A DNA stretch of 35,491 nt from Planctomycetota bacterium (GTDB lineage Bacteria; Planctomycetota; Phycisphaerae; FEN-1346): the NCBI GenBank assembly GCA_026386995.1, contig JAPLMO010000316.1:1-35491 (forward strand), written 5' to 3'. This document shows positions 1 through 30,934 of the stretch, piece after piece. The notes beneath the pieces are model-generated. The model had not been told where the DNA came from and searched no databases. It saw only the letters and a list, made by a program, of their open reading frames with translations. The position numbers and the translations under genes were made by a program. The number at the start of each line of letters is the position of its first letter. The first letter of the stretch is position 1.

Positions 1-1119
1 CCGCGCCTCGCGCGCCAGATAATACATGGCGACGGCCGAGGAATCGGCGAACGGTTCACCGTGGCGCAGGACGAGTTCCGGCAGGGCCTCCAGGCATCGA
101 GGCTCGGCGCGGACCTCGGTGTGCTCCGTTGCGAACCGGCAGGCGACTTCGCGGGCGTAGGCCGACTCGTCCCACCCGGCCTCGGCGAAGCGGACCGTGA
201 ACGTCCGGATCGGCGCCGAGGCGCCTGAGGCCGCCAGCGCCGTGACGGCCGAGGAATCCAGGCCGCCCGAAAGGAGGACGCCGAGCGGCACGTCGGCCAC
301 GAGTTGCGACCTCACGGCTTCCGAGAGGGCGGCCCGCAGCCGCTCGCGCCAGTCCTCGGCGCTCGCGTTTTCGTCGGCGGGGCCGCGCGGGATGTCCCAG
401 TAGCGCGTCGGGCCTTCCACGCGGCCGGCCGTTGCGTCGAAAACAAGGTAGTGGGCGGGCGGAAGTTTCTGGATGCCCGCAAAGCCCGTCGCCGCCGCGG
501 GAACGTAGCCGAAACGCAGGAACGCCCCGATGGCCCGGCGGTCGACCCCGCGCGGCACGTCGGGGCACTCAAGCAGCGCGGCCGGCTCGCTCGCAAACGC
601 CAGGCCCGCCGGCGTGCGGCTCCAATAAAGCGGTTTCTGGCCCAGCCGGTCGCGGGCCAAGAGGAGGCGCTGCCGCGCGGCATCCCAGATGGCGAAGGCG
701 AACATGCCCACCAGGTGCGCGAGCATCCCCGGTCCGTGGTCCTCGTAAAGATGGACGAGGACCTCCGAGTCGCCCGCCGACCGCAACGTGTGCCCGCGCG
801 ACGAAAGGTCAGCGCGAAGGTCGCGGTAATTGTAGACCTCGCCGTTATACGCGAGGCAGATCGCGCCGTCCTCGTTGGCGAGCGGCTGGCGGCTGCCGGC
901 GGGGTCGATGACCGCCAGGCGGCGGACGGCCAGGCCAACGGAAATGGGGACTGTACCCTTTTCCGAACGGCCGGAAAAGGGTACAGCCCCCTTTTCGCCC
1001 GACAGCCAAACGCCTTCCTGGTCCGGGCCGCGGTGGACGAGGCTCGCAGCCATGCGGGCCAGGACCGCGGGGTCAACAGGCCGGCCGTCGGTGCGAACGA
1101 TTCCCGCTATGCCGCACAT
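1..1119 (-). CDS. asnB: Asparagine synthetase (glutamine-hydrolysing), 3' end cut by window edge
   Basis: Converts aspartate to asparagine with ATP, using glutamine-derived ammonia, in the cytosol. The first residues are MCGIAGIVR, so Cys2 is the class II glutaminase nucleophile. HRGPD, YNGEVYNYRDLR and GDSEVLVHLYEDHG follow, and the synthetase domain opens with the PPi-loop LLSGGLDSS near residue 280. The reading frame stays open to base 1, giving 373 codons, so more than 100 C-terminal residues are probably outside the window. The ATG at 1119 is preceded by GGGAGA on the minus strand at good spacing. About 20 extra residues (near 43-62) between GVWL and VGLAVRRLAVID are encoded by a palindromic repeat (separate entry). 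Family assignment is firm; whether it serves asparagine supply or a surface-polysaccharide/peptide pathway cannot be told from here. Confidence 0.93.
   Translation of the reverse strand, partial: MCGIAGIVRTDGRPVDPAVLARMAASLVHRGPDQEGVWLSGEKGAVPFSGRSEKGTVPISVGLAVRRLAVIDPAGSRQPLANEDGAICLAYNGEVYNYRDLRADLSSRGHTLRSAGDSEVLVHLYEDHGPGMLAHLVGMFAFAIWDAARQRLLLARDRLGQKPLYWSRTPAGLAFASEPAALLECPDVPRGVDRRAIGAFLRFGYVPAAATGFAGIQKLPPAHYLVFDATAGRVEGPTRYWDIPRGPADENASAEDWRERLRAALSEAVRSQLVADVPLGVLLSGGLDSSAVTALAASGASAPIRTFTVRFAEAGWDESAYAREVACRFATEHTEVRAEPRCLEALPELVLRHGEPFADSSAVAMYYLAREAR
946..990. repeat. 45-bp palindromic element inserted in frame inside asnB
   Basis: The arms GGGGaCTGTACCCTTTTCC and GGAAAAGGGTACAGcCCCC flank a short centre (gaacggcc). 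Read on the asnB strand it encodes GAVPFSGRSEKGTVP with no stop, and both flanks continue normal AsnB sequence. It looks like a mobile palindrome tolerated within a surface loop of the glutaminase domain. No other copy of this family is visible in the window. Confidence 0.85.
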
Positions 1120-2978: not shown

Positions 2979-3009
2979 TGTTTATAACGAGATCGCTGGG
3001 CCGCAGTTT

Positions 3010-3037
3010 GCGCGGCGGGTACGGAGACCCGCCGCGC
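3010..3037. repeat. Palindromic repeat, family B1
   Basis: GCGCGGCGGGT, loop acggag, ACCCGCCGCGC: identical in stem and loop to the copy at 4892-4919. The downstream text GCGCTGTCATA at 3053-3063 resembles the outer arm of the 18320-18396 element, so the mobile unit may extend that far. Confidence 0.85.
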
Positions 3038-3063
3038 GAAACCTTGAAAGCGGCGCTGTCATA

Positions 3064-3735: not shown

Positions 3736-3860
3736 GGGCGCCTCCTTCGTGCTGCTGTTATCTCTCCCACGCCTTCCAATCTAGTTGGCGGGGGCGGTGG
3801 TGTCAACGCTTGCCGCGCGCCGGCCGCGCGGCCGCGCGCGGGCAGTGCGTCAGTAGCGGG

Positions 3861-3938
3861 GTGGCACCGCAGGCGTGTCCATCCGGGGCGGTCGGCCCCT
3901 GGCGATACCCACCGCTGGACAAGCCAGCCGTGCCACAT
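3861..3938. repeat. Degenerate copy of palindromic family A
   Basis: The right arm (about 3911-3938) is intact and nearly matches the arms at 21111-21140 and 28544-28574, while the left arm (from GTGGCAC at 3861) carries several mismatches. The loop, read on the minus strand (tatcgccaggggccgaccgc), nearly matches the loop of the 28493-28574 copy, which shows common descent rather than chance similarity. Confidence 0.75.
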
Positions 3939-4827: not shown

Positions 4828-4886
4828 GTAGGCCGGGGCAACGCCCCGACTGTCATTAATGTTGCCGGGGCGTTGCCCCGGCCTAC
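4828..4886. repeat. Palindromic repeat, family D, with 21-bp perfect arms
   Basis: The arms 4828-4848 and 4866-4886 are exact reverse complements (they begin GTAGGCCGGGGCAACG and end in GGCCTAC), with a 17-base loop containing attaat. It starts directly after the mqnA stop codon and could form a strong hairpin in any mqnA-mqnC transcript. Confidence 0.85.
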
Positions 4887-4891
4887 ATTGC

Positions 4892-4919
4892 GCGCGGCGG
4901 GTACGGAGACCCGCCGCGC
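4892..4919. repeat. Palindromic repeat, family B1, upstream of mqnC
   Basis: GCGCGGCGGGT, loop acggag, ACCCGCCGCGC, ending 13 bases before the mqnC start codon. It occupies the place where a Shine-Dalgarno or promoter would normally be and could affect mqnC translation. Confidence 0.85.
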
Positions 4920-4932
4920 AAGACCCAAGGTT

Positions 4933-16228: not shown

Positions 16229-16418
16229 CGGCCTTTCCGGAACGCTGCGCCTGTCGCAGGCGACCCCGCGCGATAATCGCGGCGGATCGACTCCATGCGC
16301 GACGAGCCCGTGAGAGGCGAGCCACAGGTATTCTAAACGCAATCCACCCCGCGTCAAACGATTTTGCCGCCTTCGAAACACTGCGGTACCGCGTCGCATA
16401 CCACTGCAACGCAACTTT

Positions 16419-16446
16419 GCGCGGCGGTTCAGGAGAACCGCCGCGC
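16419..16446. repeat. Palindromic repeat, family B2
   Basis: GCGCGGCGGTT, loop caggag, AACCGCCGCGC, followed by acaatagggaagttacgctg, which is shared with the copies at 18344 and 22498. It lies in the roughly 360-bp gap between the divergent kinase and WaaP-like genes, where I see nothing else. Confidence 0.88.
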
Positions 16447-16591
16447 ACAATAGGGAAGTTACGCTGTCGGCTTTTGCCTTGAAAGCCGCCCATGGACGGA
16501 CTACGATGGTCACATCAAACGTCGGGAAACAAGGGGTCCGGAGCCCTACAACGATATGGCTTCTGGCCCCTTCAGAGTCCTTGCGGGGCCT

Positions 16592-18319: not shown

Positions 18320-18396
18320 TATGACAGCGCCAGATTGCGATTTGCGCGGCGGTTCAGGAGAACTGCCGCGCACAATACGGAAGTTGCGCTGTCATA
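18320..18396. repeat. Extended family B2 palindrome with outer arms
   Basis: The core is GCGCGGCGGTT (18344-18354), caggag, AACTGCCGCGC (18361-18371; one mismatch). Outside it TATGACAGCGC (18320-18330) pairs exactly with GCGCTGTCATA (18386-18396). This copy shows the fullest form of the B2 unit and fills the gap between the kinase-like gene and the heptosyltransferase. Confidence 0.85.
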
Positions 18397-21061: not shown

Positions 21062-21140
21062 ATGTGGCACGGCTGGCTTGTCCAGCCGTGGGGAACTTCG
21101 CCGGCCTTCGCCACGGCTGGACAAGCCAGCCGTGCCACAT
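21062..21140. repeat. Palindromic repeat, family A, with 30-bp perfect arms
   Basis: The arms 21062-21091 and 21111-21140 are exact reverse complements (core TGGCACGGCTGGCTTGTCC). The arms match the copies at 28493-28574 and 3861-3938. The loop (gggaacttcgccggccttcg region) differs from that of the other two. Confidence 0.88.
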
Positions 21141-22476: not shown

Positions 22477-22497
22477 TGCTTGGGCCGATTGCGATTT

Positions 22498-22525
22498 GCG
22501 CGGCGGTTCAGGAGAACCGCCGCGC
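22498..22525. repeat. Palindromic repeat, family B2, upstream of the rmlD-like gene
   Basis: GCGCGGCGGTT, loop caggag, AACCGCCGCGC, preceded by gattgcgattt and followed by acaatagagaagttgcgctg. These flanks match the 18320-18396 copy and fix the extent of the B2 unit at about 60 bp. Confidence 0.88.
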
Positions 22526-22562
22526 ACAATAGAGAAGTTGCGCTGTCGCACGAGGAGAGAAG

Positions 22563-28382: not shown

Positions 28383-28492
28383 TCCCCGTCTGCCGCAATA
28401 AGACGAGGAAGTATACCACCGCCGCCACCCCTGCGGCAAAGCAAAACCGCGGCCTACTGCCGCTCAGTTACGTGCGCCCCTCCAGATTGCGG

Positions 28493-28574
28493 GGTGTGGC
28501 ACGGCTGGCTTGTCCAGCCGTGGGTATCGCCAGCGGCCGTCCGCCACGGCTGGACAAGCCAGCCGTGCCACACC
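28493..28574. repeat. Palindromic repeat, family A, with 31-bp perfect arms
   Basis: Arms 28493-28523 and 28544-28574 are exact reverse complements around the loop gtatcgccagcggccgtccg. It lies between the hydrolase operon start and the CreD-like gene stop, in a place where no gene is seen. Confidence 0.88.
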
Positions 28575-28611
28575 CGATAGAGGAAAGCGCCCGAAACTCA
28601 GGGGATACGGC

Positions 28612-30344: not shown

Positions 30345-30390
30345 TACAAAACTCGCCGGCACTAAAAGCGCCGGCAGCGTAAGGTATTGT

Positions 30391-30418
30391 GCGCGGCGGT
30401 TCTCCTGAACCGCCGCGC
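30391..30418. repeat. Palindromic repeat, family B2, inverted orientation
   Basis: GCGCGGCGGTT, loop ctcctg (the reverse complement of caggag), AACCGCCGCGC, preceded by attgt. This is the only B2 copy facing the other way in the window. Confidence 0.85.
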
Positions 30419-30830
30419 AAGTTGTCGGCTACCGGGGCCGTGGGCGGTTTCGCCATTCCTGCCAAACCACGCGGCCTGCGCCATGACCACGCCCGGCCGC
30501 CCCGCCCAGCTTCGTGCGCCGCCGAAAAAGCACGCGGAGATAAGCATCGCGCCCCCCCCGCACAGTCCCGGGTGTTGGGAGAATGGGAACAAGCCCGCGG
30601 CAATGCCGCGGGATGCTTCTGATGCCCCGGCGCGGCCGGTGGGGACTTCATCCCCCGCATGTCGAAGACTCGCCAATGCAAGTCGTAGAGTTGCCGTGGC
30701 GATTCGCCCGGCCGACCTCGCGGAGGCGTACGATAACGGCTTCAGCCAGTTATTTTTGAGTTACCATGTCAGGGGAGCGATTATCATACCAGTTCAACCG
30801 CGCCTCGTAAAGACGGGCTTAGAAAAGAGG
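30419..30830. other. Non-coding stretch with one hairpin
   Basis: I see no credible gene in these roughly 400 bp. CCCGCGGCA and TGCCGCGGG (30594-30612) form a perfect short hairpin. GC content falls from about 30,720 onward, near the start of the less GC-rich right end. Confidence 0.4.
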
Positions 30831-30831
30831 A

Positions 30832-30934
30832 TTTAACCGCGGAGAACGCAGAGAACGCAGAGAAAGACTTCTTTGTTTTTAGAAAAAAAGAGACTTGGTT
30901 TCTCTCCGCGCTCTCTGCGTTCTCCGCGGTTAAA
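30832..30934. repeat. Palindromic element with 23-bp perfect arms (family I)
   Basis: Arms 30832-30854 and 30912-30934 are exact reverse complements (core AACCGCGGAGAACGCAGAGA) around an AT-rich centre with a run of seven As. The arm contains a short GAGAACGCA tandem repeat (30842, 30851). It marks the boundary between GC-rich DNA and the less GC-rich esterase cluster. Confidence 0.85.

Follow-up and report, generated by a model that had tools for sequence, protein, structure and literature searches.

Palindromes that code for protein are best known from Rickettsia. In the window (the whole 35,491-nucleotide stretch of DNA, from an uncultured planctomycete, that we analysed), the asparagine synthetase gene asnB contains a palindrome that is read in frame, which raises the questions of what this element is and how it came to lie inside a conserved enzyme. 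The explanation that we prefer, and consider quite probable, is that it is a non-autonomous mobile palindrome of the REP/TIR type, which a REP-type tyrosine transposase acting in trans placed in asnB and which lengthened a loop of the protein. The in-frame insertion of a mobile palindrome in asnB is real; that this palindrome belongs with the REP/TIR elements linked to transposases is probable but remains to be proved.

The letters at positions 946-990 agree with the earlier note, which had described a near-perfect palindrome of 45 bp at this place. Folding gives a perfect stem of 15 pairs (951-965 with 972-986) around a 6-nt loop, with a further 4 and then 6 pairs outside the stem. These outer pairs extend the palindromic structure to about 939-997 (Table 1), and the inserted unit is nearer to 57-59 bp, so the sequence in that description stands and the size does not. 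As single-stranded DNA, the element has a fold energy of −24 kcal/mol, against a mean of −9.4 for shuffled sequences (z = −6.6), and 0 of 200 shuffles matched its fold. The two arms are the sole occurrences in the 35-kb window of the half-site GGGGACTGTACCCTTTTCC with up to 3 mismatches (0.01 expected). The element contains no stop codon in any of the six frames. Together, the fold and the arms show the arrangement of inverted units that is expected of a REP/TIR element. No target-site duplication is established for the window element, whose ends are uncertain.

Table 1. Coordinates of asnB, of the inserted element and its parts, and of other repeats in the window
Feature	Positions	Strand	Basis or remark
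asnB, asparagine synthase (glutamine-hydrolysing), N-terminal 373 residues	1..1119	-	Pfam, TIGR01536
Palindromic element, inverted dimer of 21-nt units	939..997		Fold and alignment; ends approximate
Left arm GGGGACTGTACCCTTTTCCG (4 + 15 pairs, one mismatch)	946..965		Unit AAATGG-N9-CCTTTT from 942
Hairpin loop	966..971		Coding strand CGGCCGTTCGG around it resembles CGGCCGTATGG of the MiaB copy in genome G004
Right arm CGGAAAAGGGTACAGCCCC	972..990		Unit AAAAGG-GTACAGCCC-CCTTTT, exact fit to the 21-nt pattern
Second palindrome family, GCGCGGCGGnTn...CCGCCGCGC	3008-3040, 4890-4922, 16417-16449, 18342-18374, 22496-22528, 30389-30421		
Third family, paired inverted TGTGGCACGGCTGGCTTGTCCAGCC around a short spacer	3858-3937, 21062-21140, 28492-28575		
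Hairpin with perfect 21-bp arms (GTAGGCCGGGGCAACGCCCCG)	4828-4886		17-nt loop
Inverted repeat with 37-nt arms	30832-30934		Arms 89% complementary, 29 nt between them

The host gene runs off the start of the window; its reading frame is uninterrupted, and the sequence that flanks the insert on either side is conserved. The product exceeds the Pfam cut-offs for GATase_7, GATase_6, and Asn_synthase and scores 319.6 bits against TIGR01536, above the cut-off of that model. The coding strand of the element is read as GEKGAVPFSGRSEKGTVPIS, at about residues 41-60. Counted from the alignment, the net gain over P0006, a homologue with a minimal loop, is 19 residues or 57 nt, which bears out the earlier estimate of about 20 residues gained with the frame intact. 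The suggestion that the insert occupies a loop also held in the structural model, where residues 43-54 are disordered (pLDDT <50) and lie between strands 34-39 and 60-67. The fold matches of the model confirmed the AsnB fold and nothing more.

As had been anticipated, the insert is missing from relatives. We used the best 120 of 7,990 homologue matches (the nearest named sources among these are mostly Planctomycetota), and 119 aligned rows, including the window, reach the segment. Among those rows, a peptide of this kind is present only in the window and possibly in P0004, which reads GEKGPAPISG / GEKGPAPISGAGRTS at the insertion site; judged by eye, this is perhaps an eroded copy of the element. 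Other relatives read WLDGAAGLAVRR (P0006), WLEGTPGAIGLAVRR (P0003), or WIESGTPSPSCAGLAVRR (P0001, 86% identical) at the insertion point, and the DNA of four relatives from named genomes (L001-L004) has no element at the asnB site. The length of the segment is naturally variable, at 3-32 residues across the aligned rows and 26 in the window. (These lengths were taken from the alignment; a survey by regular expression had matched just 49 and 18 sequences.) We also observed that two AsnB relatives, P0002 and P0014, lack the usual N-terminus and start just before or inside the loop that bears the insert. From their sequences, the frame in these genomes is perhaps broken at that loop.

Is the element mobile? 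Exact half-sites were present in 0 of 4 close genomes and 0 of 392 planctomycete genomes, the paired form was present in 0 of 246 genomes, and no exact or near-exact copies were found in viral contigs or plasmids. When four relatives were searched with 3 mismatches allowed, an inverted pair was found in the sister genome G004 (G004:C153). (The control pattern gave one match in this search, and only G004:C153 was counted as kin.) The coding strand of this copy reads GGAAAAGGGGACAGGCTCCTTTTCC-GGCCGTAT-GGAAAAGGTGCCTGTCCCCTTTTCC: its arms are laid out as in the window and its loop, CGGCCGTnnGG, is nearly identical to that of the window. The copy is an in-frame part of miaB (L086:1342-2829), where it encodes residues 425-443 (EKGTGSFSGRMEKVPVPFS), and its reading frame matches that of the copy in asnB. 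No insert of this type is present in the remaining MiaB orthologues of the order that extend over this position. As a homologous copy lies in an unrelated gene of a sister genome, we infer that the palindrome of the window is mobile.

A looser half-unit is rare: it was found in 3 of 199 planctomycete genomes, and a similar search found it in 4 of 50 genomes from several phyla (a sample drawn from 50 of the 80 loci L001-L080). All four of the latter are planctomycetes, and control patterns gave 0 matches in both searches. Four loci from the 199-genome search and nine from the 50-genome search, together with G004:C153, make 14 distinct kin loci. In 4 of these 14, the copy is in frame in a recognisable gene: miaB of G004; a gene of G072 for an FAD subunit like that of 4-hydroxybenzoyl-CoA reductase (FAD_binding_5 above and TIGR03195 below cut-off); glmM of G433 (TIGR03990 above cut-off); and, at G149:C69, a gene in which the copy follows a PKD domain and the next match, to Golvesin_C, is below the Pfam cut-off. 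Another copy (G149:C3) lies within a 956-residue frame with no Pfam family, and 9 of the 14 loci show no sign of a gene around the copy.

Could the palindrome be an artefact of assembly, or a gene-breaking insertion in a decaying copy of asnB? Palindromes are prone to misassembly. Also, P0014 and the P0002 protein (95% identity across 85% of the query) begin at the loop, as if the frame had been broken there, and the MiaB frame of G002 also stops early. Against this, the asnB frame of the window is open between conserved flanks, and the family is in frame again in other genes from independent assemblies. We consider an artefact or a decaying gene unlikely.

A slightly less probable alternative is that the insert is not tolerated mobile DNA but has a function, either as a selected mRNA hairpin or as a selected peptide with a regulatory effect on AsnB. 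The hairpin is strong. Furthermore, the 3' arm is read in one and the same of the three frames in all six intragenic copies, including that of the window. (This test was made post hoc on few copies, with P ~0.004 for 6/6 and P = 0.012 for the 5/5 that remain without G149:C3. In the arm at G149:C69, one other frame contains a stop, so the three frames are not all open there.) However, near relatives do without the insert, homologues fill the same loop with unrelated sequences of many lengths, and the element is also present in unrelated proteins, so we doubt that AsnB makes use of it.

If the element is instead tolerated mobile DNA, then a transposase might have moved it. All 8 genomes of the order have matches to Y1 transposases (PF01797), with 3 to 9 per genome. 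We built a tree from 38 of 56 transposase loci; the 18 excluded loci are mostly weak matches, yet the strong L169, L174, and L188 are among them. In this tree, L106 (G004), L115 (G397), and L190 (G149) form a clade with a support of 0.999, and L188 (G149) joins it by its 59% identity to L190. Units of 21 nt with the pattern AAAAGR-N9-YCTTTT adjoin the gene in 4 of 4 members of this clade and at 0 of the 52 other loci. (We picked the motif after seeing three of the four loci; L188 was found afterwards, with its other flank cut by the end of the contig.) The background is 5 such units in 1.17 Mb (L001-L080), all of them in L004 of G004. The N9 of the flanking units differs by gene, as each of the four has its own. 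The right-hand unit of the window fits this layout exactly, and the left-hand unit is one base off. The exact unit of the window flanks none of the transposase loci that we examined in related genomes. A count of units of the AAAAGGNTCCNGGANCCTTTT type gave 141 in G004 and 2 in G397; the six remaining genomes had none. We scored the coding potential on either side of 31 sampled clusters of this type in G004, using a simple codon model derived from 51 ORFs. The copy at the second AsnB site was the only one to exceed 0.1 on both flanks, so this family is probably intergenic for the most part.

A neighbouring clade of transposases has flanks that bear GGGGAC. At L177 (G004), each end carries AAACCTGGGGACGGTACCCATGTTTT in inverted orientation; L168 has GAGATAAGGGGACACTCACTTATCTC. 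The inverted ends of L177 contain GGGGACGGTACCC, which is one base from GGGGACTGTACCC of the window. Inverted GGGGAC flanks on both sides were found at 3 of 8 loci of this second clade versus 0 of 30 others (a post hoc comparison), or 3/12 versus 0/40 (P = 0.01) if 14 of the 18 excluded loci are placed by their best BLAST match. The contrast is weaker for GGGGAC on one side alone (6/8 versus 6/30 on the left). Against the NCBIfam model REP_Tyr_transpos, with a cut-off of 80 bits, L106 and L177 both fall below it, at 68.6 and 69.4 bits. The link between the element and the transposases of either clade is circumstantial, as it is drawn from related genomes rather than from the window's own.

How does the element compare with those already described? 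REPINs consist of two inverted REP-like units with a short spacer and are thought to depend on RAYT; they typically have a high copy number. The window element likewise pairs inverted units around a short spacer. In published work on REPs, GTAG and CGTC are the tags of super-families (the CGTC super-family includes RPE-4 and RPE-6), intragenic REPs are known in several species, with dimers adding 20-30 residues, two recB genes carry REPs that differ from each other but lie at roughly one position, and transposases can be flanked by TIRs, some of which share the motif GGGGWSAS (PMC3733652). The window element resembles these REPs and TIRs of RAYT and TIRYT in having short palindromes in an inverted dimer and, circumstantially, a link to Y1 (HUH) enzymes. 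By motif, GGGGACAG of the G004 copy fits GGGGWSAS, as in some TIRs, whereas the window arms GGGGACTG and GGGGGCTG miss it by at least one base (PMC3733652). Unlike the tagged REPs, the element has neither GTAG nor CGTC, nor their complements, in positions 936-1004, which places it outside both of these super-families.

The earlier note had likened the element to those of Rickettsia. As described in PMC10969869, these are in-frame palindromes of ~150 bp in loops of unrelated proteins, and similar insertion was suggested to be possible outside Rickettsia. The likeness in behaviour stands: residues were gained in frame in a loop, the copy in MiaB points to mobility, and both asnB of the window and miaB of G004 are protein-coding genes. 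Membership is not supported: nothing in our results links the element by sequence to those of Rickettsia, it lacks both tags, and at 57-59 bp, in a GC-rich planctomycete, it differs from the elements described (PMC10969869). True kinship with the Rickettsia palindromic elements (or with a CGTC-type repeat without its own transposase), whether acquired or inherited and with the means of spread unspecified, is the least probable reading, and quite improbable, since what it has in its favour, namely in-frame copies in loops of unrelated conserved proteins with one frame preferred within genes, is set against the missing tags, the lack of any Rfam match in the window, kin that were seen only in planctomycetes among the genomes searched, and a unit layout that also flanks transposases. 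Judging by titles and the openings of abstracts, the open-licence literature did not yield in-frame palindromes in planctomycete AsnB or MiaB. This is a new repeat family, in a phylum for which we found little on the subject, and the type of event is already known.

We return to the preferred explanation, a REP/TIR-type palindrome moved in trans. Against it weigh the rarity of the unit, the lack of exact half-sites in the genomes searched, the lack of a transposase locus flanked by the exact unit of the window among those examined, and the 9 kin loci with no sign of a gene. The element would consist of a pair of 21-nt units (AAANGG-N9-CCTTTT) in inverted orientation, with a short loop between them. 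From the flanks of the related transposases, we infer that a REP-type tyrosine (Y1, HUH) transposase was the probable mover of the window copy and that it acted in trans on a single-stranded hairpin. As the element has no stop in six frames and added a multiple of three bases, its arrival would have made an exposed beta-hairpin turn longer by about 19 disordered residues. This turn would lie in the glutaminase domain of AsnB, and the enzyme presumably still works; copies that landed in less tolerant places would be lost.

Other repeats lie in loops of the same enzymes. A second loop of AsnB, flanked by REAFS and LPxxVL, contains a perfect AAAAGGGTCCAGGACCCTTTT palindrome in frame in G004 (L004:4596-4616). 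In P0002, P0012, P0013, and P0014, this loop has peptides such as GEELRIANCGLRI...QSAIRNPQSAI, which fit a AATCCGCAATCCGCAATC repeat known from five of the order's eight genomes (from a protein reading only). The TRAM-domain loop of MiaB is covered by six of the order's eight orthologues, and five of these six differ from one another, each with a palindrome or repeat in frame. The insert in G004 is of the window's family. That in G396 is GCGCGGCCCGTACGGGCCGCGC, which has exact copies at three G004 loci and none at the other G396 loci examined. G003 has a CAATCCGC repeat without a perfect hairpin, and G398 has CCCTCTCCCTTGGGAGAGGG, with one mismatched copy at another G398 locus. G001 has CGCTCGCCAAGGCGAGCG twice and nowhere else among the loci examined, so dispersal of CGCTCGCCAAGGCGAGCG is without support. 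G399 has no insert, the G002 frame ends before the loop, and the G397 match is partial. MiaB has another such segment, ahead of its radical-SAM part: here G001 (L127) has an in-frame insert of 34 residues with a GCGCGGCGGG...CCCGCCGCGC palindrome, and G398 (L128) has a different, repeat-like insert in frame at the same place.

We tentatively propose, with slightly more doubt than confidence, that across the order transposase-linked palindromes keep extending the loops of core enzymes, that a few sites (two in AsnB and two in MiaB) are refilled by unrelated families, and that one reading frame, the ExxxVPFS-like frame used in 6 of 6 intragenic copies of the window's family, is favoured by selection or by the choice of target. 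That different repeat families recur in the same loops is the least ordinary aspect of our data. Protein-coding palindromes are seen here in planctomycetes of high GC content; their relatives have candidate transposases, and several repeat families share the same enzyme loops. Related genomes then reveal both the birth and the decay of inserted peptides. Whether the inserts are merely tolerated or are shaped by selection on reading frame can be tested. Annotators should also be wary of odd segments of 10-40 residues in planctomycete enzymes, as these may derive from mobile DNA.

The window contains other repeats as well (Table 1). The copies of the second palindrome family in the window lie between presumed genes; this family is also found in relatives, with one copy in frame in MiaB of G001. 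A hairpin and a longer, imperfect inverted repeat were also seen. The third family occurs in relatives too, and a transposase locus of G397 (L091) has similar palindromes on both sides.
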